A DNA stretch of 64,000 nt from Pseudomonas sp. MUP55. Lineage in GTDB: Bacteria; Pseudomonadota; Gammaproteobacteria; Pseudomonadales; Pseudomonadaceae. Shown in pieces: positions 12,957-63,055 of this stretch. The translations under genes were made by a program, and so were the position numbers. The notes beneath the pieces are model-generated. The model made no database searches and was not told the origin of the DNA. It was given only the letters and a program-made list of their open reading frames with translations. Every line of letters begins with the position of its first letter. The stretch's first letter is position 1. The stretch spans positions 4,092,001-4,156,000 of the forward strand of contig NZ_CP138214.1 in NCBI RefSeq assembly GCF_034043515.1. Direction: 5' to 3'.

Positions 12957-13188
12957 ACTGACTCAGCCCTTCATGGACCCGTGTCGCGGCTCGCCCGACA
13001 CTCAAATCAGCGCGCGGTTCCCCATCGTAGGGGATTCCCCTATGCGCAATCAGGCCCGACCTGATATTCGCAATATCTAATAGCCATTAATGTGACGCCA
13101 TTCTCATTGCATGAATGGAGTCAGGCTTTTGTTTGCCATCCCAAGCCCTTGGTCCGCAGGCCTTCCAGGCATTCTCGTATCGGCAACT

Positions 13189-13230
13189 AAAGTCGTGTCA
13201 TCCCGCTCAACGGGGGATACACGCGACTTT
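13189..13230. other. Long intergenic hairpin (leader or cryptic element)
   Basis: AAAGTCG on the left pairs with CGACTTT on the right, and the inner parts TGT/ACA and ATCCC/GGGGAT also pair around a GCTCAA loop. The stem is long but interrupted. No U-tract follows on either strand, so it is not a classical terminator. It lies about 135 bp upstream of the small gene at 13365 and could belong to its leader. Confidence 0.4.
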
Positions 13231-13364
13231 CGCGGGCATTTAAATAAACGTCCTACAGGAATATCGGAAGCAGCCTACAAGCCTCAATTAAATTTCAGCG
13301 CTAGTTTTAAGCTATTCACCCGGTGCGATATCTCATCACCCGAGCTTAAGTTGTGGAGACTTGC

Positions 13365-13814
13365 ATGATGAACAGCGCGAAAGAATGGCAAACGGGACTT
13401 CCCGAATTTCTGATGGAAGCCGAAATGCTGCTGATCAAGTCGCAAGAGTGCTTGAGCCATCTGCATTTGATCCGCAACGACAGCGACGCCATCGACTGCA
13501 TGAAGACCAGCCTCGCCAAACTGGCTGAAAAGGCCGACAGCCTGGCGCTGCAGGCGATCAGCGAATTCTCCAGGCACCTTCAGCATTTGATCGCCAATGC
13601 CCAGAGCCCCATGCAACTGCATGACGACGCGCTGGATGCCTTGCATAACTGCCTGACACTGCTGGCCTGGCAATTGGAGCTGATCGACACACGCACCGGC
13701 GAACTGGGCCTGGATGAAAGTGAACAAACTTCACTGATTGCGACGGTCACCCTGCAAATCCCGCAAAAGGACTTCGGGCATAAGCCGCAACAGCGTTTAC
13801 ATCATGCGTCCTGA
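13365..13814 (+). CDS. Small helical protein of unknown function
   Basis: A 149-residue, mostly helical, acidic protein with no signal peptide or membrane segment. I do not recognise the family. The heptad-like pattern and the segment SLALQAISEFSRHLQHLI faintly recall a histidine phosphotransfer four-helix bundle, but the expected HxxKG motif is missing. The ATG at 13365 is preceded by GTGGAGAC. It stands alone between divergent cheV and the downstream two-component pair. A role as a partner of a signalling protein is only a guess. Confidence 0.6.
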   Translation: MMNSAKEWQTGLPEFLMEAEMLLIKSQECLSHLHLIRNDSDAIDCMKTSLAKLAEKADSLALQAISEFSRHLQHLIANAQSPMQLHDDALDALHNCLTLLAWQLELIDTRTGELGLDESEQTSLIATVTLQIPQKDFGHKPQQRLHHAS

Positions 13815-14015
13815 GTCTGTCGTATTTGATCGCCAGGCTATCCGAAAACGACCTGCACGCTGATAACGTTACAAATCCATTCTGGCGGTACAACTTTTCC
13901 TTTTTGAAACCCTGGGGTTACCCGCCCAGAGTAATTACATGGGCCATAAACCAATCAGGCGACCAGCGGTAACGGGGGTGGTACTATGCCCCCCTCGAAG
14001 TGACACAACTTCATC

Positions 14016-28912: not shown

Positions 28913-31045
28913 TCAGCCGTTGGGCCCTACTGTCGCGACGATAGTCACTTGCTTATTGTCAGGAATTTCCTGGTAAGCCAACACGTGCAAATTCGGTACT
29001 GCCAGGCGTCCAAAGCGCGACAACATCGCGCGGACCGGACCGGCCACCAGCAGAATCACTGGCTGGCCCTGCATTTCCTGGCGCTGCGCGGCTTCGATCA
29101 ACGAACGCTGCAGCTTTTCAGCCATGCTTGGCTCCAGCAGAACGCCCTCTTCCTGGCCTTGTCCTGCCTTCTGAATACTATTGAGCAATATCTGTTCCAA
29201 CCTTGGCTCCAAGGTGATAACAGGCAGCTCAGACTCAATGCCTACAATGCTTTGCACGATTGCACGGGACAAACCGACGCGCACCGCGGCCACCAGCGCG
29301 GCAGTATCTTGACTCTTGGCGGCATTGTTGGCGATGGCCTCGGCAATGCTGCGAATGTCCCGGACCGGCACCTGTTCGGCGAGCAAGGCTTGCAACACCT
29401 TGAGCAACTGCGACAGCGAGAGCACGCCCGGCACCAGTTCTTCGGCCAGTTTCGGCGAGGCTTTGGCCAGCAAACCCATCAATTGCTGGACTTCCTCGTG
29501 GCCGATCAGTTCGTGGGAGTGCTTGTAGAGAATCTGGTTGAGGTGGGTGGCGACCACGGTGCTGGCGTCGACCACGGTATAACCGAGGGACTGCGCCTGG
29601 CTGCGCTGGCTGACTTCGATCCACACCGCTTCCAGGCCAAAAGCCGGATCTTTGGCGGTGATGCCGTTGAGCGTGCCGAACACCTGGCCTGGGTTGATCG
29701 CCAGTTCGCGGTCCGGGTAGATCTCCGCTTCGGCCAGGATCACCCCCATCAGGGTCAGGCGGTAGGCGCTGGGGGCCAGGTCGAGGTTGTCGCGAATGTG
29801 CACGGTGGGCATCAGAAAGCCCAGGTCCTGGGACAGCTTCTTGCGCACGCCCTTGATCCGCGCGAGCAACTGGCCGCCCTGGTTGCGGTCCACCAGCGGA
29901 ATCAGGCGGTAGCCGACTTCCAGGCCGATCATGTCGATCGGGGTCACGTCATCCCAGCCCAGCTCCTTGGTTTCCTGGGCGCGGGCCGGGGACGGCAGCA
30001 GTTCCTGCTGGCGGGCAATTTCCTGCTGGGCCTGGACCTTGACCGCATTCTGCTTTTTCCAGAACAGGTAGGCACCGCCGCCAGCCATGGCCGCCATGCT
30101 CAGAAACGAGACGTGGGGCATGCCCGGCACGATGCCCATGATCGCCATGATGCCCGCCGCCACCGCCAATGCCTTGGGGGACGCGAACATTTGGCGGCTG
30201 ATCTGCTTGCCCATGTCTTCGGAGCCCGACGCACGGGTCACCATGATGGCTGCGGCTGTGGATAACAACAGTGATGGCAATTGCGCCACTAAACCGTCAC
30301 CGATGGTCAGCAAGGCGTACACCTTGCCCGCATCGCCGAAGGTCATGCCGTGCTGGAAGATACCGACCGCCATGCCGCCGATCAGGTTGATGAACAGAAT
30401 CAGCAGGCCGGCGATGGCGTCACCGCGCACGAATTTGCTCGCACCGTCCATGGAGCCGTAGAACTCGGCTTCCTGGGCGACTTCGGCACGGCGCGACTTG
30501 GCCTGGTTCTGGTCGATCAGGCCGGCGTTGAGGTCGGCGTCGATGGCCATCTGCTTACCGGGCATCGCGTCCAGGGTAAAGCGCGCGCTCACCTCGGAGA
30601 TACGCCCGGCACCCTTGGTCACCACCACGAAGTTGATGATCATCAGGATCGCGAACACCACGATACCGACCACGTAGTTACCGCCGATCACCACTTCACC
30701 GAAGGCCTGGATCACCTTACCGGCGGCGGCGTGGCCGTCCTGGCCGTGCAGCATCACCACGCGGGTGGACGCCACGTTCAACGCCAGGCGCAGCAGGGTC
30801 GCCACCAGCAGAATGGTGGGGAACACCGCGAAATCCAGCGGCCGCAGGGCGTACACACACACCAGCAGCACCACCACTGACAGCGCGATGTTGAAGGTGA
30901 AAAACACGTCGAGCAGGAACGGCGGCATTGGCAACATCATCATTGCCAGCATCACCAGCAACAACAATGGCACACCCAGATTGCCCCGCGACAGGTCAGT
31001 CAGGGTGCCACGGGCCGTGCTGAGCATTTGAGAGCGATCTACCAC
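28913..31045 (-). CDS. flhA: Flagellar type III export protein FlhA
   Basis: A 710-residue export-gate protein with eight N-terminal membrane helices (about 15-310), the conserved cytoplasmic FHIPEP loop region (GKQMAIDADLNAGLID), and a C-terminal cytosolic domain that binds export chaperones. The frame is open to 31162, but a GAGGAA site lies 5 nt before the GTG at 31045, which yields the N-terminus VVDRSQMLSTARG and the normal length. FlhA lies downstream of an IS3 element that separates it from flhB. A sigma-54-like promoter at 31106-31121 remains between the IS and the gene, so expression need not be lost. Confidence 0.93.
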   Translation of the reverse strand: MVDRSQMLSTARGTLTDLSRGNLGVPLLLLVMLAMMMLPMPPFLLDVFFTFNIALSVVVLLVCVYALRPLDFAVFPTILLVATLLRLALNVASTRVVMLHGQDGHAAAGKVIQAFGEVVIGGNYVVGIVVFAILMIINFVVVTKGAGRISEVSARFTLDAMPGKQMAIDADLNAGLIDQNQAKSRRAEVAQEAEFYGSMDGASKFVRGDAIAGLLILFINLIGGMAVGIFQHGMTFGDAGKVYALLTIGDGLVAQLPSLLLSTAAAIMVTRASGSEDMGKQISRQMFASPKALAVAAGIMAIMGIVPGMPHVSFLSMAAMAGGGAYLFWKKQNAVKVQAQQEIARQQELLPSPARAQETKELGWDDVTPIDMIGLEVGYRLIPLVDRNQGGQLLARIKGVRKKLSQDLGFLMPTVHIRDNLDLAPSAYRLTLMGVILAEAEIYPDRELAINPGQVFGTLNGITAKDPAFGLEAVWIEVSQRSQAQSLGYTVVDASTVVATHLNQILYKHSHELIGHEEVQQLMGLLAKASPKLAEELVPGVLSLSQLLKVLQALLAEQVPVRDIRSIAEAIANNAAKSQDTAALVAAVRVGLSRAIVQSIVGIESELPVITLEPRLEQILLNSIQKAGQGQEEGVLLEPSMAEKLQRSLIEAAQRQEMQGQPVILLVAGPVRAMLSRFGRLAVPNLHVLAYQEIPDNKQVTIVATVGPNG

Positions 31046-31105
31046 CGGTATTCCTCGTGTCCTTGAAGCAAAGTTTTGACGCGCAGAAGCGTCCTGGAGG
31101 CGGTA

Positions 31106-31121
31106 TTGCAAGAAGCCTTCC
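31106..31121 (-). promoter_or_regulatory. Candidate sigma-54 promoter of flhA
   Basis: The minus strand reads TGGAAGGCTTCTTGCA, with the GG and GC dinucleotides 10 nt apart as needed for sigma-54. The first box departs from the consensus TGGCAC at two positions, so it is weaker than the promoters of fliE, fliL and fleS. It is 61 bp from the flhA start. FleQ-dependent sigma-54 control of flhA is known in P. aeruginosa. Confidence 0.5.
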
Positions 31122-31161
31122 AACTTTGCTCTGGAACCCGTACGACTCCATGCGGGACCCA

Positions 31162-31241
31162 ATGTGGGAGGGGGCTTGCCCCCGATGACGGTGCATCAAC
31201 CACCTATTTCGGGGCCTGACACACCGCTATCGGGGGCAAGC
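31162..31241. repeat. REPIN, second REP split by the IS element (left part)
   Basis: A complete REP (GTGGGAGGGGGCTTGCCCCC) is followed by the left half of its inverted partner, which stops at GGGGGCAAGC where the IS begins. The remaining half (AGCCCCCTCCCAC) appears directly after the IS at 32495-32510. Joining the two parts, counting the AGC duplication once, restores an intact REP palindrome. Confidence 0.88.
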
Positions 31242-31308
31242 TGAACTGGCCTAATGATCCCGGACACCTCTTAAGGGCGATATGATTCGCCCAATCAGGA
31301 GGTTCCGA

Positions 31309-32456
<1,148 letters not shown>

Positions 32457-32494
32457 TCACCGTAACCGGTGTCCGGAAAAACTTGACCAGAACA

Positions 32495-32510
32495 AGCCCC
32501 CTCCCACATT
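32495..32510. repeat. Right part of the split REP, after the IS
   Basis: AGCCCCCTCCCAC directly follows the IS right end and completes the REP interrupted at 31241. The first three bases form the target-site duplication. Confidence 0.88.
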
Positions 32511-32594
32511 GGATTGCGTGCAGTCAGAACTCTCGGAGAAATTTCCGGCACGTAGGGTGATCTCCCACGCGGAGCGTGTGAACGATCAGAATGC

Positions 32595-32810
32595 TCAACG
32601 GCCACCACCGTTGCGCGCCTTGATCGGTAACGCATACACACCCTGAGGCCTGTGGACCAATTGGAAGCTCATGCGCTTGCCCACCCAAAGCTCAGTACAG
32701 CACCAATCATAGCAATTGATAAACACCTCTTCTGCTCCGTAATCCAGCTGGATCAACCACTCTCCCCGGGTCCAGAGATAGGCGCTGACAGTCCCCGTAA
32801 TCACCTTCAA
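32595..32810 (-). CDS. Small protein with divergent cold-shock-like (OB-fold) pattern
   Basis: A 71-residue ORF from a TTG codon at 32810, with GGGAG placed 7 nt upstream. The sequence follows the strand pattern of cold-shock domains: ITGTVSAYLW, then LDYGAEEVFI, then LWVGKRMSFQLV, and GVYALPI at the end. The RNP1 and RNP2 aromatic motifs of CspA are not conserved, so nucleic-acid binding is uncertain. It lies next to another small cold-shock-like gene on the same strand and in the same accessory patch between flhB and flhA. It could be a diverged or decaying gene. Confidence 0.45.
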   Translation of the reverse strand: MKVITGTVSAYLWTRGEWLIQLDYGAEEVFINCYDWCCTELWVGKRMSFQLVHRPQGVYALPIKARNGGGR

Positions 32811-32884
32811 TACCGCTCTCCCTGCATCTCGTCTACTACATGCGCGCAGTGTCTACAGAGTAATCAAATCGTGATAAGCGCCGC

Positions 32885-32909
32885 TTGGCTACTGTCAAAG
32901 TTGACAGGT
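32885..32909. repeat. 25-bp direct repeat, copy 1
   Basis: The sequence starts TTGGCTACTGTCAAAG and ends TTGACAGGT, with the palindromic core TGTCAA-AG-TTGACA. An identical copy in the same orientation begins 450 bp further on, at 33335. Confidence 0.9.
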
Positions 32910-32956
32910 AGACGCTCGCTGCCAGGAGTGCTAAGCGGCAGGCACGATTGCGATGC

Positions 32957-33072
32957 TGATCGTTCCCACGCTCTGCGTGGAAATGCCGCCTGGGACGCTC
33001 CGCGTCCCGATTGAGCAAGGCTGACGCAGAGCGTCAAGGGAGGCATTCCCACGCAGGCGCGCGGGAACGATC
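32957..33072. repeat. REPIN-like pair of the GATCGTTCCCACGC family
   Basis: GATCGTTCCCACGCTCTGCG on the left and GCGCGGGAACGATC on the right form the outer inverted ends, with inner segments rich in GCGTGG/CCACGC-type short palindromes. A related fragment, TCCCACGCGGAGCGTGTGAA, lies at 32563-32582. This is a third repeat family in the window. Confidence 0.7.
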
Positions 33073-53463: not shown

Positions 53464-53868
53464 TTATTCTGCCGCGCCTTGTGGCACGCCAATAGCATCC
53501 CAGCCTTCTTTAACAGTGATCATCAAACGCGCTACTTCGTCGATCATATCGGCGTCATTATGCAGGTTGGCCTCCATCAGGCGATTGGTCATGTATGCGT
53601 ACAGACTTTCCAACTGCTGGACGTAAGCCGGGTTTTCGCTTTTCTCCGCATCCAGACCGTCCCGCAGGCCGATGATGATATCCACCGCCTTGCCCAACAT
53701 CAGCCCCTTCTGCGAGATATCACCACGAGCCAGCGCACCCTTGGCCTGCGCCATACGGTCCAACCCGCCTTCCATCAACAGTTGCACCAAGCGATGCGGA
53801 CTGGCTTCGGATATCTGAGCGTGAGAATTGACCTTCTGGTACTGGCGAAGGGCTCTGATGGGGTTCAT
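53464..53868 (-). CDS. fliS: Flagellin export chaperone FliS
   Basis: A 134-residue chaperone with the conserved SPHRLVQLLMEGGLDRMAQAKGA and the C-terminal helix. FliS binds the disordered C-terminus of flagellin and prevents early polymerisation. It normally follows fliD in one operon, but here it is separated by the glycan operon and carries its own upstream sigma-28-like site. Confidence 0.93.
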   Translation of the reverse strand: MNPIRALRQYQKVNSHAQISEASPHRLVQLLMEGGLDRMAQAKGALARGDISQKGLMLGKAVDIIIGLRDGLDAEKSENPAYVQQLESLYAYMTNRLMEANLHNDADMIDEVARLMITVKEGWDAIGVPQGAAE

Positions 53869-53916
53869 GGTTCTACCTCGTGACAGGCGAAAGCGGAAAG
53901 GATTTCAGTAGCCTTA

Positions 53917-53943
53917 ATGTCGACTGGATTGCCAATTACTTTA
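53917..53943 (-). promoter_or_regulatory. Candidate FliA (sigma-28) promoter of fliS-fliT
   Basis: The minus strand reads TAAAGTAA, an 11-nt spacer, then GTCGACAT. The -35 matches 6 of 8 and the -10 matches 5 of 8 positions of TAAAGTTT / GCCGATAA. The site is 48 bp from the fliS start, the expected place, since fliS cannot be read from fliD here. Confidence 0.5.
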
Positions 53944-54124
53944 GTGCGCCGGTTGTTAAAAAAGCCCGCGATCAGGATGTTGGCTGTCGGCAAGCTCTAT
54001 CAAGTTCTGTGCGGAAGCTCATCCGTACCCTCTGCAGCGGGCCGGCCTCACTTCGATTGGTACAGTTCCTGCTATGCCCTGCTGCAATAGCAAAAACGAT
54101 ACTTTATTGACAGCCGTGGGCACC

Positions 54125-55249
54125 ATGAAAAATATCATCAAGCTGTTAGTACCGGAAATGCCGAAGATCGAGCAGATTCTTCCTTACTGGCGACAAATCG
54201 ATGAGAACCGCTGGTACACGAACTTCGGCCCGCTGGTCAGTGAGCTTGAAAGGAGGCTGTCGCGTTCATTTAGCCGGGAACCTGCGCAAGTTCACGTGGT
54301 GTCCATGGCCAACGGCACGTGCGCGCTACAAATAGCCTTGGAAGCATTGAAACTACGTAAGGGGAGCCGGGTACTCGTACCTGGGTTGACGTTTGTTGCG
54401 ACTGCAACCGCAATCATCCGTGCCGGACTCAATCCACTGATAAGCGATGTAAACCCCGAAAACTGGCTGCTTACACCGGCCATAGCACGGGCGCTGCTGG
54501 CTGAAACGTCATTTGAAGCGGTAATGCCTGTCGCCACTTATGGCTGTCCTCAAGATGTCGCGGACTGGGACGTGTTTACTGCCGAAACCGGCATTCCGGT
54601 GGTAGTGGATGCCGCAGGCGCCTGGGGTAACCAGCAAATAGGTCTGACAACGAAAGCCGCTTTCAGCCTACACGCCACAAAAGCTCTCGGCGGAGGCGAA
54701 GGCGGTTTCGTCGCGTCGCGACATCACGCATATGGTCAGAGCATGCGGACACTCAGCAACTTTGGTATCGATGCCCATAGTGGCGGGCTCGTGTTTGATG
54801 CAGGTGAGAACGGCAAAATGAGCGAATACCACGCAGCCGTCGCGTTGGCCGCGCTGGACAACTGGCCAGTCGTGGCCGAAGCGCGTCGAACCCTGCATCA
54901 ACACTACGCTACGAGGATATTGGAAAAAATTCCTGCGCTGAAACTTCAAGTCAAACCGATGACTGGCGTCTACAGCCTTATGCTCGTATTGCTACCTCCA
55001 GGCTTCCGTGGTGTGGATATTCAGTTACGCCTTTTGGGCAAAGACATCGAAACCCGTCGCTGGTATTGCCCTCCCTTGCATGGCCACCCTGCCTTTCAGG
55101 CTTTCACGGTCGGCCCGCTGCCTGTAGTTGAAATGTTGACAGAGCGTTTAATTGGGCTGCCATTCCATCTTTCATTAACCAAAGCAAACGTTGAAACAAT
55201 CATTGATTGTCTCGCGGAATTGCTCGCTGACCCATCGGTAGCAATATGA
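54125..55249 (+). CDS. DegT/DnrJ/EryC1/StrS-type sugar aminotransferase (VioA-like)
   Basis: A 374-residue PLP enzyme. The cofactor lysine lies in SLHATKALGGGEGG (Lys186), with the partner Asp in VVVDAAGAWG (near 162). It should convert a nucleotide-linked 4-keto-6-deoxy sugar to a 4-amino sugar, as VioA does for viosamine. The ATG at 54125 is chosen because upstream codons are unlike family members; the ribosome site is weak. The region is visibly more A/T-rich than the flagellar genes, suggesting transfer. It is first in a four-gene operon of overlapping genes that presumably serves flagellin glycosylation, although the exact sugar is unknown. Confidence 0.85.
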   Translation: MKNIIKLLVPEMPKIEQILPYWRQIDENRWYTNFGPLVSELERRLSRSFSREPAQVHVVSMANGTCALQIALEALKLRKGSRVLVPGLTFVATATAIIRAGLNPLISDVNPENWLLTPAIARALLAETSFEAVMPVATYGCPQDVADWDVFTAETGIPVVVDAAGAWGNQQIGLTTKAAFSLHATKALGGGEGGFVASRHHAYGQSMRTLSNFGIDAHSGGLVFDAGENGKMSEYHAAVALAALDNWPVVAEARRTLHQHYATRILEKIPALKLQVKPMTGVYSLMLVLLPPGFRGVDIQLRLLGKDIETRRWYCPPLHGHPAFQAFTVGPLPVVEMLTERLIGLPFHLSLTKANVETIIDCLAELLADPSVAI

Positions 55250-56391
55250 CTCCAATGCTTGAGAAAAAGCCTTTGGTAGTCATATTCACTGGGGCCAACG
55301 AACGCGCGATCGGCGCTTTCTGCCGATCTTTGCGGCGGGAGCATATCGACTTCGTATTGATTACGCGTAACGCAAAAGATTTGTTGTACCACACTCGTCT
55401 ACGTCGTCATTTATTTGCCCAGCGCACGCTCGACAGCCTGGACGAAAACGAATTCAAGCGCTTGTTGCTCGACGTCAAGACACATTACCCCGAACGCGCG
55501 TTAACCGTAGCTCCCAGTGCCGAGTCAATAAATCGTCTGTTACTTGGCATGCAGGAGTGGATGCATCACGAAGGCATACAAGGGATCAACGTCAGCTCGC
55601 AGATCTACGAGCTATTTTCAGACAAGGAAAAGCTCCTTGCCGCGGCGGTGACAGCCGGTCTTGAAATACCGCCACTGATAGAGCACCTATCTGAAAGTCA
55701 ATTACCGTTCGTGCTTAAGCCTAAAGTCGAGAGCATTGCCAAGGGTCAGCGTATTTACCCGCTGCTGGTGCGCAATGCTGCCGAATATGTCGAACACGTT
55801 GCTAGCTACGACGCTACACGCTATTTGATTCAACGCTATATAGACGGACAGAGCTTTTACTATCTTTATTTCCGCAACGATGTAGGCGTTCTTGCGCTGT
55901 ATCAGCGCAACATCGCCCAGCAGGCGGCTGGCAAGTCAATAGTTGCCGCCGAACTGGTGAGCTGCCCAAACAGCGCTACAGATCAGCGTCTGCGAGCATT
56001 ACTTGAACAGTATGAATATCGCGGATTCATCATGTTCGAAGTAATGGAAAGCGCTGGGCAGCATTTCCTGATAGAGGCTAACCCGCGCATGTGGGGGCCG
56101 ATGCAGTTGGCGCTGGAGAATGGCTTCCGCGCGAGTTGGCTGGTGCAAGCCCAGCATGACTCGCCACAGATGGCCGAGACTCGGCGTTTTCTCCGCTTTT
56201 GGCGCCGTGAAAAATATCTTTGGCTCGGCGGATTCGCCGGCCAGACACGCACCCAAATGCGCTTTTTTTCTGGAGCTCGGCTCTGGCTGTTACAGGCCTG
56301 CTGTTGGTTACCGCGCTATGACATCTGGTTCGCCACCGACAGCCTGAGGCTGTTTTTTTTCGAATTCCTTCGCTCAGGCAAACGCCAATGA
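55246..56391 (+). CDS. ATP-grasp enzyme of the glycan operon
   Basis: A 381-residue protein with the ATP-grasp fold. Nucleotide-binding features include FVLKPKVES (about 160-168) and the metal/ATP segment FLIEANPRMWGPMQLALENG (about 280-300). It overlaps the aminotransferase by 4 bp (ATGA) and the next gene likewise. ATP-grasp enzymes join a carboxylate to an amine or similar nucleophile, so acylation of the new amino sugar is a reasonable idea. The last 60 residues are hydrophobic and aromatic and may contact the membrane. I do not recognise a characterised relative. Confidence 0.8.
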   Translation: MTPMLEKKPLVVIFTGANERAIGAFCRSLRREHIDFVLITRNAKDLLYHTRLRRHLFAQRTLDSLDENEFKRLLLDVKTHYPERALTVAPSAESINRLLLGMQEWMHHEGIQGINVSSQIYELFSDKEKLLAAAVTAGLEIPPLIEHLSESQLPFVLKPKVESIAKGQRIYPLLVRNAAEYVEHVASYDATRYLIQRYIDGQSFYYLYFRNDVGVLALYQRNIAQQAAGKSIVAAELVSCPNSATDQRLRALLEQYEYRGFIMFEVMESAGQHFLIEANPRMWGPMQLALENGFRASWLVQAQHDSPQMAETRRFLRFWRREKYLWLGGFAGQTRTQMRFFSGARLWLLQACCWLPRYDIWFATDSLRLFFFEFLRSGKRQ

Positions 56392-57179
56392 CCAAAGAAC
56401 AATTACTGGCGCTCTATGTACACTCGGGTAAACATGCCAGCTATCAGCCGCTGCCTGCTTTTGTGGTCAAGCAGCTGGGAGTCGACGTGCCCGTAAACCC
56501 CCGCTGGCGCGCAGACCATGGTCGCCTGGACTACCTCAACGCGCATTTCGACTTCAGTGGTCAGCGCTTACTGGACGTCGGCGCCAATACAGGCCTGTTC
56601 ACCACGACACTGGCGCATACATACCCTGACAGCCATTGCGTTGCCTGGGAGCTGGATCAGAGCAGCGCGGATTTTATCCGCGCCCTCGCCGCTGAATTCA
56701 ACCTGACCAATGTCGAAGTGGTTCAGCAGGCGCTCGATTATCAGGTCGCCCAGACCATACCGGAACACTTTGACACATTATTGCTGTTCAACGTGCTGCA
56801 CCACGCCGGGGTCGACTTTGATGCCGCGCTGGTGCCCGACAAACAAGCACTGAACAGTTACATCCAGGGTTTCTTGAAAGCGTTGCGCCCGGCATCGGAT
56901 TGCCTCCTCTTCCAGATGGGATTCAATTGGGGCGGCGATACCGCGCAACCCGTAGCAGGGCGCAACGCATTGGGTGAGAAGCTTGCCTACGTAGAAGCGG
57001 CGCTGGTCGATACCGGATGGCAGGTTGAGCATGTTGGGTTGGTGCTGGATCCGCAGACCCGGCAAATAGAGCTATTTGATTGGGCTGGCGCCCTCGATAA
57101 GGCTGATGTTTGCGACCGCCTGGGCCGTGAAGGCAACCTAAGCGAGTTCTATCTTCGCCCTTTGTTCAAACTGGTATGA
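56388..57179 (+). CDS. Class I SAM-dependent methyltransferase
   Basis: A 263-residue methyltransferase. SAM motif I is LLDVGANTGLF (61-71), the acidic loop is VAWELDQSS (near 90), and motif IV is FDTLLLFNVLHHAGVD. It overlaps both neighbours by 4 bp. O-methylation of the flagellin sugar is the likely role; P. syringae flagellin carries an O-methyl amino sugar. The acceptor is inferred from context only. Confidence 0.85.
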   Translation: MTKEQLLALYVHSGKHASYQPLPAFVVKQLGVDVPVNPRWRADHGRLDYLNAHFDFSGQRLLDVGANTGLFTTTLAHTYPDSHCVAWELDQSSADFIRALAAEFNLTNVEVVQQALDYQVAQTIPEHFDTLLLFNVLHHAGVDFDAALVPDKQALNSYIQGFLKALRPASDCLLFQMGFNWGGDTAQPVAGRNALGEKLAYVEAALVDTGWQVEHVGLVLDPQTRQIELFDWAGALDKADVCDRLGREGNLSEFYLRPLFKLV

Positions 57180-60100
57180 ACATGACAACGATTCTCTCGG
57201 CCGAACGCTTACCGCTGATCAGCATAGCAATACCCGCCTACAGCCCTCGATTTTTTGAGGCGGCACTGAGCAGTGCGCTGAGTCAGCAATACTCCAATAT
57301 CGAAGTGGTCATCACCGATGATTGTCGCGGCGACGGCATTCGTCTAATTACTGAGCGTCTTGCTGAGCAGTCGGTTGTGCCGGTCCGCTATCTTCACAAT
57401 GAACAGCAGTTGGGCGGGATGCTGAATCTTAACCGTTGCCTGGAGGAATCCCGAGGCGAATACATCAAGTTTCTCAACGACGATGACGTCCTGCTGCCCG
57501 ATTGTGTGCCACGTATGGCGGCAGTACTGCAATCTCGCAGTGATATCGCGCTGGTCACCTCACGGCGCCAGCTAATAGATGCCCAGGGCGAGACGCTACC
57601 GGACATCCTGGAGACCACCGACGTATTTAAAGAAGACACCTGCCTGCATGGCGAGGACGTTATTTCGCTGCTTTGCGACTGGCCTGTGAACTTCATCGGC
57701 GAACCCAGCACCGTGATGTTTCGTCGAACTCAAATAATCGACAAGGTACCGCACATCTGTGCCCTTGGAGGGGTAGTTATCCGGGCGATCAACGACTTGG
57801 CGTTGTTCGTAAACCTGCTGCAGCACGGCCACTTGGCGTTTCTACATGAGCCTCTGTCGCTGTTTCGTCGGCATGCCGACCAGCGCCAGAACCAGCCCGA
57901 CATGAAGGAGCTGTTCATGCAGGGCAGCACACATTTCACCCAGCAGATCCGGGCACTGAAGCTATACCGACCGCAATTTCTATTACAGGTACGCCGCACA
58001 CCACTATCAGCCCCCCCCGTTTTCACACTGTTTCAGTTAAGGGGGGCTTATGTTGCATCCGATACCGTACCCGCCGCTTCACCAAGCAGCGCCGATGGGT
58101 ACACTCAAACATGTGAATTGCTGGAAGTGGAGCGGCCCTCTCTTGAGGACGGCGCCCCCCCGGTCGGTGTGGTCATCCACGCCTACCACCCCGACTTGCT
58201 ACAAAATATATTGCAGCGCCTGATTCAATTGCATGAACGTCTGCATTTATATGTTACCTGCATAGCGGGAGCGGAAAATGACATACGCGCCCAGTTAAAG
58301 GCTACGGGACTAGGTTATTCACTTTTTAGAGTAACGAACCATGGTCGCGACGTTTTTCCCTTCCTGCAGGTACTGCCGTTTCTACGCGCTGATAACATCC
58401 ATACGCTAGTCAAGCTGCACACCAAGCGCTCGCAGCACCTGGGCTCGGCCAACTCGTGGGCGAACGATCTTTTCGATGACCTGCTCGGCCCGGTGCGATT
58501 CCGTCAATCGATAGAGTATCTTGCCAACCCCACGCACCACCCCCTGCTTGGCACAGAAAAATACCGCCAGGAGGTGACCACCCGCCTTGCTGAAAACAAC
58601 CGTATACATTTGCTCGCCCTTGCCGCACGCGCCGGCATTGATCCACAACAAATCGATGTGTCGGATTTTTTTGCCGGAACCATGTTTTTCATACGTCTGG
58701 ATGCATTGGCCCCGCTGGAGCGCATGCGTCTGACGGCAGCCGATTTCGAAACTGAATGCGGCCAACTCGATGGCACACTCGCCCACGCTTTCGAACGTTT
58801 TTTCGGCGTACTGGGAAATCTCGGCAAACAGCAGCGCAACAACCACCTTTATAAGCGCTGGCTGGAAACCCGACAACTGTCCACCACCGAGTTCGAAGGG
58901 TTGCCGGCACGACTGGCGAGCTGGTCACATCAATCAACAGTCTTGCTGGTCCTGACCGATACCACAGGTGACATTGCGGCGTTACGCGCAAGCCTCGACA
59001 GCATTGACCGTCAGCTGTACCAGGCAGCTGCCATCGCAGTGCTTTCCAATGCCCAACCCTTGGGGGTGAAACCGGCCGACAATCTTGTCTGGCTACCGCT
59101 GGCGGATTCCTGGCCAAGCCAACTCAATGAGCTACTTCAAGGCATCCAGGTGGACTGGTGCTATCTGTTGCGCGGCGGCGACCAACTCGATCCGCATGCA
59201 TTGCTGCTGCTTGCCGAGGGAATCGCACTCAATCCAGGCATCAGCGTCTGTTACAGCGATGAAGACTCGATAACCGTATCAGGTTGCCAGGACCCGGTAT
59301 TCAAACCTGACATGAACCTGGATCTTCTACGCAGTTATCCATATGTGGGTCGCGCCCTGGCCTTTAGCCGCGAAGCAGCACTGAAGGCTGATGGATTCAA
59401 TCCCACTTTTGCTGAGCTGGCACCCCACGACCTGCTCTTGCGGCTCGTGGAGAGTCATGGGCTGGGTACCGTCGGCCACATCGCTGAAGTGCTGGTTCAC
59501 CAGGAAATCAACTTCGGCCAATGGCTTGGCGAAAACCAAGTCATCGTCCATTCCGCCGCTGTCATACAGGCACACCTCCAGCGGCTAGGCGTGGCTCACA
59601 AGTTGAGCACGGGCCCTCTTCCGATGGTCAACCGTGTGATCTACCAACACACGGGAAAGCCGTTGGTATCAATCGTGATTCCTACCAAAGATCAACTGCC
59701 TATGCTGATGCGCTGCATAGAAAGCCTGATGGGTAACACTCGCTACACCCATTACGAACTAATCATCATCGACAACAACAGCCAAACCCCCGAGGCCCGG
59801 GAATGGTTCAAAGGCATGGAGCGCCTGAACGATGCCAAAGTGCGCATCCTGCGCTACCCGCACCCGTTCAATTATTCTGCCATCAACAACTTTGCAGTGA
59901 GCCATGCGCGCGGCGAGTATCTGGTGCTGCTCAATAACGACACTGCGGTCATCGATGGCGACTGGCTGGGTGCAATGCTCCATCATGCTCAGCGACCGGA
60001 AGTGGGGATTGTCGGTGCAAAATTGCTGTTCCCCAATGGGAATATCCAACACGCTGGCGTGGTGCTTGGATTGCGCGGCGTTGCAGATCACCCGTTCATC

Positions 60101-61516
60101 GACAGCCCGATGCTGTCCAACGGCTACCTTCACCGTCTGCAAATCGATCAGAACTACAGCGCTGTCACCGCCGCCTGCATGATGATCCGTACCGCGTTAT
60201 ACCGGCAGGTGGGCGGGATGGATGAGGCCGGCCTGGGTGTTTCCTATAACGATGTAGACCTGTGCCTGAAAGTAGGACAGGCCGGTCAATTGGTCGTCTG
60301 GACCCCTTACGCGGTGCTGATGCATGAGGCCAACGTAAGCCAGAACAAAGTAGACAAGACCACACAGGAAGCCAAGCGCGAGCGGTTCAAACGCGAACAG
60401 GCGGTGATGTACCAACGCTGGCTGCCGCAACTGGCGAACGACCCTGCCTACAATCGCAACCTGACCCTAGAAGGCAGTGGTTTTGCCTACGAATGTCGTA
60501 GCGACGTCGGCTGGCGACCGTTCGCCACTCGTGCGCTACCCTACGTATTATGCTACCCAGGTGACTCATTCGGCAGCGGTCATTATCGGGTACGCCAGCC
60601 TTTTGCTGCACTTCAGGCCGCCAAGCTGGTCGACGGTGAAGTGAGTGACTCGCTTCTGCAACCAGTGGAACTGGAGAGGCTGGCCCCGGACACAATCATC
60701 TTCCAACGTCAGTTCAGCAAACCCCAACTGGAAGTCATCCAGAATGCCCGATCACTGTCCAAGGCATTTAAGGTGTACGAACTGGACGATTACATTCTCG
60801 ATATTCCCGCTGGCAATCTGACCCGCGCGCTGTTCCCCAAAGACACGGCAAAGCGCTTGAGGAAAGCTGTGAGCCTATGCGATCGACTGGTGGTTTCGAC
60901 TCAACCGCTGGCCGATGCCCTGAAAGGCTACAACACCGACATTCGTGTGATGGAAAACCGCCTGCCAGGCCAGTGGTGGGCTGGGCTGGTCAGCCACCGC
61001 AAACAAGGGCGAAAACCTCGGGTGGGCTGGGCCGGTGGATTGAGCCACGGCGCCGACTTGCGAGTGATTGCCGACGTGGTTCGCGAACTGGCCGGGGAGG
61101 TGGAATGGGTGTTCATGGGAATGTGTCCGACGGCCCTGCGCCCCTATGTGCAGGAGTTTCACAGCGGGGTAAGTATCGAAACATACCCTGCACGGCTGGC
61201 AGGCTTGAATCTGGACTTGGCATTGGCACCGGTGGAAGACAATTTTTTCAACGCCTGCAAAAGTAATCTGCGTCTACTGGAATATGGCGCTTGCGCGTTT
61301 CCGGTCATCTGCTCGGACGTACTCTGTTATCGCGGTAACTTTCCGGTGACCCGGGTCAAGAACCGGTCCGGAGACTGGATCGCCGCCATTCGCGAACATC
61401 TCGCTGAACCGGATGCCAGCGCCCAGTCCGGAAATGCCTTACGCAACGTGATACTGGACAAGTGGCTACTAAGGGAAGAAAACCTGTCGGCCTGGCGAGA
61501 CGCCTGGCTGCCTTGA
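57176..61516 (+). CDS. Giant multidomain glycosyltransferase (probable flagellin glycosyltransferase)
   Basis: A 1446-residue protein with five recognisable modules: GT2 domain (about 13-240; ISIAIPAYS, with NDDD at 101-104), RgpF-like domain (about 325-560; VVIHAYHPD, LVKLHTKRS), a second degenerate GT2 domain (about 587-820; YSDEDS near 693), a third GT2 domain (about 828-1080; SIVIPTKDQLP, LLNNDTAV, SYNDVDLCLK) and a C-terminal GT4-like part (about 1120-1446; GDSFGSGHYR, WAGGLSHGADL). No membrane helices are seen, so it is cytoplasmic. Placement between flagellin-associated genes supports a role in building and attaching the flagellin glycan. The start overlaps the methyltransferase stop. 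Confidence 0.85.
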   Translation: MNMTTILSAERLPLISIAIPAYSPRFFEAALSSALSQQYSNIEVVITDDCRGDGIRLITERLAEQSVVPVRYLHNEQQLGGMLNLNRCLEESRGEYIKFLNDDDVLLPDCVPRMAAVLQSRSDIALVTSRRQLIDAQGETLPDILETTDVFKEDTCLHGEDVISLLCDWPVNFIGEPSTVMFRRTQIIDKVPHICALGGVVIRAINDLALFVNLLQHGHLAFLHEPLSLFRRHADQRQNQPDMKELFMQGSTHFTQQIRALKLYRPQFLLQVRRTPLSAPPVFTLFQLRGAYVASDTVPAASPSSADGYTQTCELLEVERPSLEDGAPPVGVVIHAYHPDLLQNILQRLIQLHERLHLYVTCIAGAENDIRAQLKATGLGYSLFRVTNHGRDVFPFLQVLPFLRADNIHTLVKLHTKRSQHLGSANSWANDLFDDLLGPVRFRQSIEYLANPTHHPLLGTEKYRQEVTTRLAENNRIHLLALAARAGIDPQQIDVSDFFAGTMFFIRLDALAPLERMRLTAADFETECGQLDGTLAHAFERFFGVLGNLGKQQRNNHLYKRWLETRQLSTTEFEGLPARLASWSHQSTVLLVLTDTTGDIAALRASLDSIDRQLYQAAAIAVLSNAQPLGVKPADNLVWLPLADSWPSQLNELLQGIQVDWCYLLRGGDQLDPHALLLLAEGIALNPGISVCYSDEDSITVSGCQDPVFKPDMNLDLLRSYPYVGRALAFSREAALKADGFNPTFAELAPHDLLLRLVESHGLGTVGHIAEVLVHQEINFGQWLGENQVIVHSAAVIQAHLQRLGVAHKLSTGPLPMVNRVIYQHTGKPLVSIVIPTKDQLPMLMRCIESLMGNTRYTHYELIIIDNNSQTPEAREWFKGMERLNDAKVRILRYPHPFNYSAINNFAVSHARGEYLVLLNNDTAVIDGDWLGAMLHHAQRPEVGIVGAKLLFPNGNIQHAGVVLGLRGVADHPFIDSPMLSNGYLHRLQIDQNYSAVTAACMMIRTALYRQVGGMDEAGLGVSYNDVDLCLKVGQAGQLVVWTPYAVLMHEANVSQNKVDKTTQEAKRERFKREQAVMYQRWLPQLANDPAYNRNLTLEGSGFAYECRSDVGWRPFATRALPYVLCYPGDSFGSGHYRVRQPFAALQAAKLVDGEVSDSLLQPVELERLAPDTIIFQRQFSKPQLEVIQNARSLSKAFKVYELDDYILDIPAGNLTRALFPKDTAKRLRKAVSLCDRLVVSTQPLADALKGYNTDIRVMENRLPGQWWAGLVSHRKQGRKPRVGWAGGLSHGADLRVIADVVRELAGEVEWVFMGMCPTALRPYVQEFHSGVSIETYPARLAGLNLDLALAPVEDNFFNACKSNLRLLEYGACAFPVICSDVLCYRGNFPVTRVKNRSGDWIAAIREHLAEPDASAQSGNALRNVILDKWLLREENLSAWRDAWLP

Positions 61517-61536
61517 CCGGCCCGTTTTCAATGCTC

Positions 61537-61570
61537 AAAAAAAAGCCCGGGTGTAGTACCCGGGCTTTTT
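61537..61570. terminator. Bidirectional terminator between the glycan operon and fliD
   Basis: The stem AAGCCCGGGT / ACCCGGGCTT with a short GTAGT loop is flanked by A and T runs. It serves both the plus-strand glycosyltransferase and the minus-strand fliD. Confidence 0.92.
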
Positions 61571-61584
61571 GCATGGAGGCTCAA

Positions 61585-62976
61585 TCAAGTACTTTTCTGA
61601 TTGTTCAGAGCGTTGAGCGTACCCAATATGTTATTACTCTGCTGCCGCAATTGTGCAACAAGCGTATCCATCGCTGCGTACTTATTGGTCAGCGTGGTCT
61701 GGTAGGCGTCGATACGTTGGTCGAGTGCGGATTGTTGCTTGGCCAAGTCTTTGAGGCTGTCAGACAGCGAGGTAGAGCGAGTCGCTAGCAGGCCAGTGGT
61801 CGGCTTGGCATAGGCTTCCGTCGCCGAGGTCAAACGCGCCAGCAGGCCGTTCTTGCCATTGAAAATGCTGCTTATATCTGCAGCGTTGGTTTTCATGGCA
61901 TTGTCCCATTGCTTGTCGTCGATCGACAGCATCCCCGTGGTCTGGTCGGTTTCAACACCGAATTGGGCCAGGGATTTCAAGGTACCGCTGCCGGACATTG
62001 TGTTGAACTCGTTACGGATCGCCGATTGCAGCGTGCGCATGGTCGAGTCGCCGGTCAGGGTCGCCGCCACCGGGTCGCCCGCCGCGTTCTTGGTTACCGC
62101 TGTTTCAGCGGTCATCGCCTTGAGCAAAGCGTTGTAGGTATCGACAAAACCCTTAACGCCGGATTTGAGTGCGCTGGTACTGGTGCTGACGGAGATGGTC
62201 AGGGCGCTACGGACATTTGGATCCGACTTGTCGACCAAGGGAGACACCGTCAGCAACTTGATGCTGACACCGCTCACCGCATCGGTGATGTTGTTGGTCT
62301 TCGACTCAGCGGCAATCCCGTCAATGGTGTACTTGGCATTTTGAGGCGGGTTGACCACGCTGTAACCCGTGTCAACGCCCGAGTTGCCGGACAGGGTCAA
62401 GTCCGTACCCACACCGCTATTGGTGGAGGTCAGTATCAACCGCGAACCGTTAGAATCCGTCAGAATATTGGCACTGATGCCGGCGGTTCCAAACTGCGAG
62501 TTGATAGACTCTCGCACCTGCTGCAGGGTTGCACCGGGCGCTACGCTCACATCAAAGTTCTTGCCTGACTGCGAAATAGTCAGCGTAGTGGCGGTGTCAG
62601 TCTTGTTGACCACGGTAGATGCGCCACCCGCAAAATTGGCGGTGGTCAGTTTCGAAGGTTGGGCCAGCTGCGATACCACCAGCGAGAACGAGCCGTTTGA
62701 AGCACCCGCCCCTGCAGTCATGGTGGCAACTTTTTCATCCGAAGAAGTACCGACCAAGCCACTGAAGCTGTTATCGGTCCCCATGGTCTTGAGTGCACCA
62801 CGAAACGCATCCAACGCCGCTTGAATCTTTCCGATGGACGACAGTTGAGTGGTCGCTTTCTGCGATTGAGTGTTGATCTGAAGCTGTTTCGGTGCTTTTT
62901 CAGCATTTACCAGCGACGTAATGATCCCGCTGGTATCGATACCAGAACCAACACCACTAACCGTTGTACTCGCCAT
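61585..62976 (-). CDS. fliD: Flagellar cap protein FliD
   Basis: A 463-residue hook-associated protein 2. The N-terminal coiled-coil region starts TVSGVGSGIDTSGIITSLVN, and the C-terminal domain contains the heptad region ending near LGTLNALNN. The middle is variable, as usual. The ATG at 62976 was preferred over that at 62979 because spacing to GGAG is better. It caps the growing filament. It is followed not by fliS but by the convergent glycan operon. Confidence 0.94.
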   Translation of the reverse strand: MASTTVSGVGSGIDTSGIITSLVNAEKAPKQLQINTQSQKATTQLSSIGKIQAALDAFRGALKTMGTDNSFSGLVGTSSDEKVATMTAGAGASNGSFSLVVSQLAQPSKLTTANFAGGASTVVNKTDTATTLTISQSGKNFDVSVAPGATLQQVRESINSQFGTAGISANILTDSNGSRLILTSTNSGVGTDLTLSGNSGVDTGYSVVNPPQNAKYTIDGIAAESKTNNITDAVSGVSIKLLTVSPLVDKSDPNVRSALTISVSTSTSALKSGVKGFVDTYNALLKAMTAETAVTKNAAGDPVAATLTGDSTMRTLQSAIRNEFNTMSGSGTLKSLAQFGVETDQTTGMLSIDDKQWDNAMKTNAADISSIFNGKNGLLARLTSATEAYAKPTTGLLATRSTSLSDSLKDLAKQQSALDQRIDAYQTTLTNKYAAMDTLVAQLRQQSNNILGTLNALNNQKST

Positions 62977-63055
62977 CATCTTGCTCCTAATTCGGGAGTT
63001 ACCGCTTTCTTGACAAACAACTATCACGAACCGCAGCAACAAGTTTCATGCCAGG

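Follow-up and report, generated by a model that had tools for sequence, protein, structure and literature searches.

A likely flagellin-sugar cassette inserted between fliD and fliS in Pseudomonas sp. MUP55

Introduction

Flagellin glycans shape the sensing of bacteria by plants and animals as well as the attachment of phages. In the genome of Pseudomonas sp. MUP55 (5.95 Mb), four plus-strand genes lie between the flagellar genes fliS and fliD, which raises the question of what these genes do and how they came to be there. The locus was analysed within a 64-kb stretch of DNA (G000:C1:4092001-4156000), here termed the window. The four genes probably constitute a horizontally acquired flagellin-sugar cassette, which entered by one insertion at the boundary of the fliD and fliS units and is linked to the local fliD-flaG-fliC alleles. 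Flagellin-sugar cassettes are themselves known; what is probably new here is the unusual fliD-fliS site, the ATP-grasp tailoring enzyme and a deletion history that can be read in part.

Gene content of the cassette

The four open reading frames (ORFs) span 54074-61516 with a 4-base overlap at each junction, and their flanks fliS and fliD are on the minus strand. The four tightly overlapping genes described in an earlier note on this DNA are borne out by the ORF coordinates, by Pfam matches (AT, MT, GT, FliS and FliD) and by a profile for AGR:

53464..53868, minus strand: fliS, left flank (PF02561)
54074..55249, plus strand: AT, DegT/DnrJ/EryC1/StrS sugar aminotransferase (Pfam PF01041, E 8.9e-62)
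55246..56391, plus strand: AGR, ATP-grasp, carboxylate-amine ligase-like enzyme (profile and conserved residues)
56388..57179, plus strand: MT, S-adenosylmethionine-dependent methyltransferase (PF08242, PF13649 and PF08241 above gathering score)
57176..61516, plus strand: GT, 1446-aa multidomain glycosyltransferase (GT2, RgpF-like, GT2 and C-terminal region; Pfam)
61585..63042, minus strand: fliD, right flank (PF07195/PF02465)

The PF01041 match of AT, at 209.8 bits against a gathering score of 19.8, places the protein in the DegT/DnrJ/EryC1/StrS family, and its closest solved structures are 3ju7 and 2po3. Homologues suggest that its true start may be the ATG at 54125 (MKNII..) or a TTG shortly upstream. 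The AGR protein of the window itself gave no Pfam match, and similarity to carbamoyl-phosphate synthases (Pfam/NCBIfam) was weak. Nevertheless, ATP-grasp_3 was found in four of six aligned AGR proteins, the six-sequence profile matched PDB 2pn1 (E 7.2e-6), and the alignment contains four invariant residues (E265, E277, N279 and R281), which we take to be the ATP-grasp motif. By this profile similarity together with the conserved E/E/N/R columns, AGR is assigned to the ATP-grasp superfamily. In GT, Pfam located PF00535 at residues 16-131, PF05045 at 330-545 and PF13641 at 831-1068. The fliS-fliD gap holds only the four cassette genes, with no integrase, transposase or tRNA gene that would mark a mobile element at the site, and no tRNA gene was found in the 64-kb window. 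A second aminotransferase match is present elsewhere in the genome (G000:C1:5651561-5652622), being 26% identical and containing one internal TGA.

Insertion between fliD and fliS

FliS and FliD were searched for in 298 Pseudomonas genomes, and the gap between their genes was measured in the 107 in which both were among the matches listed. As the earlier note had held, the two genes normally adjoin, and the uninterrupted junction that it looked for in relatives was present, the gap being 87-368 bp in 104 of the 107 genomes (median of all 107, 148 bp). Long gaps were observed in three genomes, namely MUP55 (G000, 7719 bp), Pseudomonas trivialis DSM 14937 (G031, 5993 bp) and Pseudomonas poae DSM 14936 (G172, 6072 bp). 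Since three species share it at this site, the cassette is not strain-specific; strain-specific presence was one of the things that the earlier note would have counted as support for insertion. In a maximum-likelihood tree of 15 GTs the three fliD-fliS copies form one clade (support 100/100), and a single insertion is therefore the simplest reading. No AT or GT remnant was seen by eye in seven empty fliD-fliS junctions. A search for GT in the 298 genomes, with two candidates scored per genome, listed a full-length GT at a level of at least 75% for four genomes (G000, G031, G172 and G155); some GT match was obtained in 194 of the 298, mostly covering residues from approximately 550 onward. Insertion of the cassette at fliD-fliS in this lineage is supported by these comparisons.

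The earlier note had also argued for horizontal insertion from base composition. That part of its argument fell away, and the insertion itself is upheld by the short fliD-fliS gap of 104 of the 107 genomes, the single GT clade and the occurrence of the cassette at other sites in Pseudomonas simiae and G155. Against a reference set of 242 ORFs, called mechanically over 400 kb of MUP55 sequence (mean guanine plus cytosine (GC) content 61.3%), the GC contents of AT (53.7%), AGR (52.6%), MT (56.8%) and GT (56.1%) fall at the 4.5th to 7.4th percentile. In codon score, AT, AGR and flaG ranked low (4.5th to 6.6th percentile), and MT, GT, fliD and fliC were intermediate (14th to 28th percentile). However, composition fails to set the cassette apart because fliS (55.3%), fliD (54.6%), flaG (52.4%) and fliC (56.4%) are as low in GC, and neither GC nor codon usage separated it from the flanking flagellar genes. 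The higher A/T content that had been remarked upon holds relative to fleQ, fleS and fleR only, and not relative to fliS, fliD, flaG and fliC. The AT and GT genes that P. trivialis and P. poae carry at this site reach a GC content of 62-64%; the same operon at the same place with normal GC, which the earlier note would have taken as refutation if seen in most relatives, was thus encountered for AT-GT of these two species and not in most relatives. Low GC as proof of transfer was ruled out on account of both the flanking genes and the copies at 62-64% in the other two species. Elsewhere in the window, GC dips to 52.6% at 13001-14000 and to 55-56% at 31001-33000.

Association with flagellin loci

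Searches with GT patterns gave 56 loci, for each of which 23-24 kb were fetched; these loci cannot be counted as independent. Where GT relatives were less than 70% identical, fliC or fliD was present in 38 of 42 loci. All four gene types were found beside fliC in two distant carriers. In an uncultured Erwinia metagenome-assembled genome (MAG; L085) the order is fliC-fliC-AT-AGR-MT-GT, with an AGR that is 33% identical, and in the distant gammaproteobacterium G604 (L159 4031-15398) GT-AT-MT-AGR lies between flgK-flgL and fliC, with an AGR of 28% identity, three flagellin copies and one lipoprotein-like ORF after flgL. AGR is rare, occurring in one of the 298 Pseudomonas genomes searched and in four of 274 genomes of the class, this one included; P. 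simiae CCUG 50988 also has it, and relatives of 25-26% identity occur in G535 and G407. In four examined loci (the window, P. simiae, the Erwinia MAG and G604) AGR is accompanied by AT, MT and GT, and three of these four lie in flagellar clusters. The cassette shares with flagellin glycosylation islands the defining insertion of sugar-synthesis genes together with a glycosyltransferase in the flagellin locus. Gene context makes it likely that the cassette decorates flagellin.

Nucleotide identities of the flagellar genes of MUP55 were determined against nine loci, including the carriers P. trivialis and P. poae and the genomes G204 and G224, which lack the cassette at this site:

fleR: 89/89% to P. 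trivialis/P. poae, 93/93% to G204/G224
fleS: 88/87% and 93/92%
fleQ: 92/92% and 95/95%
fliT: 85/85% and 90/91%
flgK: 87/87% and 91/90%
fliD: 85/84% and 72/73% (65-75% to the seven loci that lack the cassette there)
flaG: 85/83% and 81/75%
fliC: 92/91% and 86/82%

Over the full length of fliD, flaG and fliC the two carriers are the closest of the nine loci, whereas for fleR, fleS, fleQ, fliT and flgK the closest are G204 and G224, both cassette-free at the site. This pattern fits an exchange of the fliD-flaG-fliC block along with the cassette in one lineage, in either direction.

The sole gene between flgL and fliC is KAS III-like (L051 4214-5143; genome 4157213-4158142). It is 95-99% identical in all nine loci, with or without the cassette, and a part in the acyl group of the flagellin glycan is possible for it.

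Probable loss of AGR and MT in related cassettes

In P. trivialis and P. poae the interval between AT and GT contains a short open frame that, as read by eye, opens with ATGAC, like AGR, and has the MT-like ending FNLRPLFKLV followed by a stop; tblastn did not report this remnant. The tblastn search for such scars covered 15 close loci, comprising the intact P. simiae locus and 14 others. Pieces of MT precede GT in four of the 14, i.e. G155 (E 6.5e-6), TH41 (3.9e-8), CFII64 (3.6e-5) and PB120 (1.9e-4), and G155 additionally retains the start of AGR (E 0.009). Matches on the opposite strand (E 0.02-0.04) appeared chance-like. Similar DNA was visible by eye only in six further loci (L075-L079 and L126), and neither tblastn nor inspection by eye found such scar DNA in ICMP 561 or P. 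folii. An MT gene thus appears to have once been present in six of the 14 loci (two by eye, four by tblastn). Because of these six scarred loci, and because the complete set is present in P. simiae, Erwinia and G604, the older state is probably the four-gene form, from which AGR and MT were lost later. The short GTs, with open frames of approximately 1150-1230 aa, are additionally missing the first GT2 domain. In G155 two other genes border the scarred cassette, namely an acetyltransferase of the NeuD/PglB/VioB family (167.1 bits against a cut-off of 160.8) and a methyltransferase similar to PF13578 and TylF, as if they stood in for AGR and MT, the two steps lost.

The ratio of non-synonymous to synonymous substitution rates (dN/dS) between P. 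trivialis and P. poae is 0.06 for AT and 0.10 for GT, and ranges from 0.11 to 0.20 among the five short GTs compared. AT of the window against that of P. trivialis gave 0.06 at a dS of 1.3, and the values for AGR (0.10) and MT (0.05) derive from one pair only and are near saturation. Judged by these ratios, the remaining cassette genes are under purifying selection.

Short GTs of the close clade were encountered in diverse surroundings. In TH41 (L056 6187-9654 = L083) one lies between fleS and fleQ, opposite to its neighbours, with the MT remnant before it. In G036 (L057 5469-15727) a phage integrase, a GT2 protein, a methyltransferase and a DUF6311 protein are found nearby, and such a stretch may be one route by which GT moves. 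Others follow purC-like or ppa-like genes (names read from N-termini) or lie near an integrase.

Putative transcription units at the insertion site

Three putative regulatory elements were located around the cassette:

53917..53943, minus strand: promoter-like element of fliS, TAAAGTAA-N11-GTCGACAT, the sole match in the window to TAAAG-N14-GTCGACAT
54058..54073, plus strand: sigma54-like promoter element of the cassette, TGGTACAGTTCCTGCT (position conserved)
61537..61570, minus strand: hairpin with a run of T where GT and fliD converge, terminator-capable on both strands (RNA fold)

The TAAAG-N14-GTCGACAT element upstream of fliS, which we take to be a sigma28 promoter, was read by eye in all three carriers and in six of seven empty sites; a variant stands in the remaining one. 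Downstream of fliD, a hairpin followed by T was read by eye in five of the seven empty sites. The RNA fold of 61510-61580 gave a z-score of -4.28; a terminator pattern scan of 61400-61750 missed the long hairpin at 61537-61570 and listed one weaker site at 61506-61522. Scans of 53700-54200 detected neither a sigma70-like promoter nor a terminator pattern, and a TCAAG-N13-GCCGATA pattern had six matches against 4 expected, with none at fliS. In chromatin immunoprecipitation of FleQ in P. fluorescens F113, fliD and fliST are separate likely targets, and for P. putida KT2440 the same source describes no FleQ peak upstream of fliST (PMC6120874). A review describes fliS and fliD as FliA-dependent in P. 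putida KT2440, unlike in P. aeruginosa PAK (PMC8036289). Given the hairpin after fliD and the promoter-like element before fliS at empty sites, together with the F113 data, the cassette probably sits at the boundary of two transcription units, where the fliD terminator probably also serves GT. The view that fliD and fliS form one operon is therefore doubtful, and a disrupted fliD-fliS operon is unsupported.

In all five close AT-bearing copies, GG-N10-GC occurs 66-68 bases upstream of the MKNII ATG, and the DNA farther upstream does not align among the fliD-fliS copies, P. simiae and G155. The sigma54-like consensus alone is found in the window at chance frequency (46 matches versus 51 expected from shuffles), so the evidence for this element is its conservation, by which the cassette probably has a sigma54-type promoter of its own.

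Evidence against the flagellin assignment and alternative explanations

Several observations weigh against the assignment to flagellin or against parts of the reading built on it. Among GT relatives of at least 70% identity, just three of 14 loci contain fliC or fliD; by gene context, the GT family as a whole is tied to flagellin, most of the close clade having moved elsewhere. P. simiae CCUG 50988 carries all four genes (84, 79, 83 and 77% identity) between hda-like and perM-like genes (names read from N-termini), in a stretch without flagellar genes, and its fliD adjoins fliS elsewhere in the genome. Similarly, AT and GT of G155 are located away from flagellar genes in a genome whose fliD-fliS junction is ordinary, and no flagellar gene occurs in the 13 kb around the AGR relative of G535. 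The apparent replacement of AGR and MT in G155 was seen in a single genome. Apart from the P. trivialis and P. poae proteins, the aminotransferases of flagellin-linked loci have no more than 25-31% identity to AT, which therefore does not fix the identity of the sugar. The AlphaFold2 model of AGR, built from three sequences, reached a pLDDT of 48, too poor for a fold search. The alleles of fliS (87% to G207, 83-84% to the carriers) and flgL (86% to G224, 77% to the carriers) do not track the carriers. With respect to regulation, additional GG-N10-GC matches lie upstream in three of the five copies, and sigma54 by itself is no proof of flagellar control. A FleQ half-site at the conserved ATTGAC downstream of the sigma54-like site is not claimed, because the TTG in this motif may serve as a start codon and the FleQ consensus was found unreliable in F113 (PMC6120874).

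A cassette that decorates lipopolysaccharide or exopolysaccharide, its position in the flagellar cluster being incidental, would agree with the 11 of 14 close GT loci that lack fliC and fliD in the fetched 23-24 kb, such as the hda-like/perM-like site of P. simiae and the G036 integrase stretch with its GT2 and methyltransferase genes. We nevertheless consider this unlikely, since 38 of the 42 loci of more distant GT relatives are linked to flagellin, the four gene types lie at fliC in Erwinia and G604, and the fliD and fliC alleles track the cassette. With a site common to three species, and with block exchange as a means of removal, the cassette might alternatively be ancestral at fliD-fliS and lost in most relatives. 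This is highly improbable, as it is missing in 104 of 107 measured genomes, G204 and G224, the nearest of the nine loci by core genes, lack it there, and the seven empty junctions showed no AT or GT remnant by eye. That the genes are a decaying passenger without function, as the loss of AGR and MT in relatives and of the first GT2 domain in others might suggest, is barely credible in view of the low dN/dS of AT and GT maintained between P. trivialis and P. poae after that loss (0.06 and 0.10), and of 0.11-0.20 among the five short GTs.

Comparison with known systems and proposed mechanism

The reading as an inserted flagellin-sugar cassette can be set beside systems that it resembles in part. 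Pseudomonas loci with glycosylation genes between flgL and fliC, presumably the position of the PAK-type flagellin glycosylation island of P. aeruginosa, were seen among the GT relatives; their large GT shares the C-terminal two thirds, and several have a DegT aminotransferase nearby. Unlike these islands, the cassette is at fliD-fliS on the opposite strand, and flgL-fliC here contains only the KAS III gene. The viosamine island of P. syringae (vioA, vioM, vioT, vioS, vioB, vioR and acp; VioT of 1173 aa) is similar in its aminotransferase, methyltransferase and large transferase, which there finish the flagellin glycan, and is described as lying away from fliC (PMC3927599). The likeness is by description, and the cassette differs in its site and in its ATP-grasp gene, AGR being the sole extra gene where the viosamine island has the VioB/VioS/VioR/ACP acylation genes. 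Enterobacterial flagellin glycosylation islands, variable sugar-gene inserts between fliC and fliA, likewise hold aminotransferase, methyltransferase and GT genes at a flagellin locus, in a hot spot described as lacking a standard integration signature (PMC4875605). The main text of that paper has 0 matches for 'ATP-grasp', yet the Erwinia MAG has such a gene at fliC. In Shewanella oneidensis, loss of any of the five genes sfmABCDE, including the ATP-grasp gene sfmE (SO_3265), alters flagellin mass, so that ATP-grasp and methyltransferase genes are needed there for normal flagellin modification; compared by description, sfm differs in its nonulosonate-type chemistry, and its five genes include no large GT (PMC3765264). 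Literature searches on ATP-grasp, flagellin glycosylation and amino-sugar ligases found no title or abstract opening describing a cassette of this kind.

A mechanism can be outlined from these assignments. RmlB, for which a match over the cut-off is present at G000:C1:384527-385540, would supply dTDP-4-keto-6-deoxyglucose from outside the cassette. AT would aminate the 4-keto-6-deoxy sugar nucleotide (to viosamine or another amino sugar), AGR would join a small carboxylic or amino acid to the amine (N-acylation), MT would methylate, and GT would attach the sugar(s) to flagellin ahead of its export. Transcription of the operon would start from a sigma54-type promoter belonging to the cassette and stop at the fliD terminator, read in the opposite direction. 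As a more tentative extension, less likely than not to hold in full, the cassette may be mobile and self-contained, slotting into unit boundaries with its sigma54 promoter and using ATP-grasp N-acylation in place of the acyl-carrier route, with AGR and MT deleted or swapped, AT and GT kept, and the fliD-fliC alleles moving along.

If this holds, loss or exchange of tailoring steps, with AT and GT retained, would be how species vary their flagellar sugar, and ATP-grasp enzymes would, as a specific claim, act in flagellar amino-sugar acylation. The locus moreover links cassette presence with filament and cap alleles. Related species provide a natural deletion series (four genes, AT-GT, and GT alone), and each tailoring step is therefore testable in matched strains. 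Elsewhere, an aminotransferase with 39-43% identity to AT and a protein of 669 aa matching HMW1C_N and GT41 lie between fliS and fleQ of G085 (L061 7867-11142), which may be a flagellar glycosylation locus of a second type.

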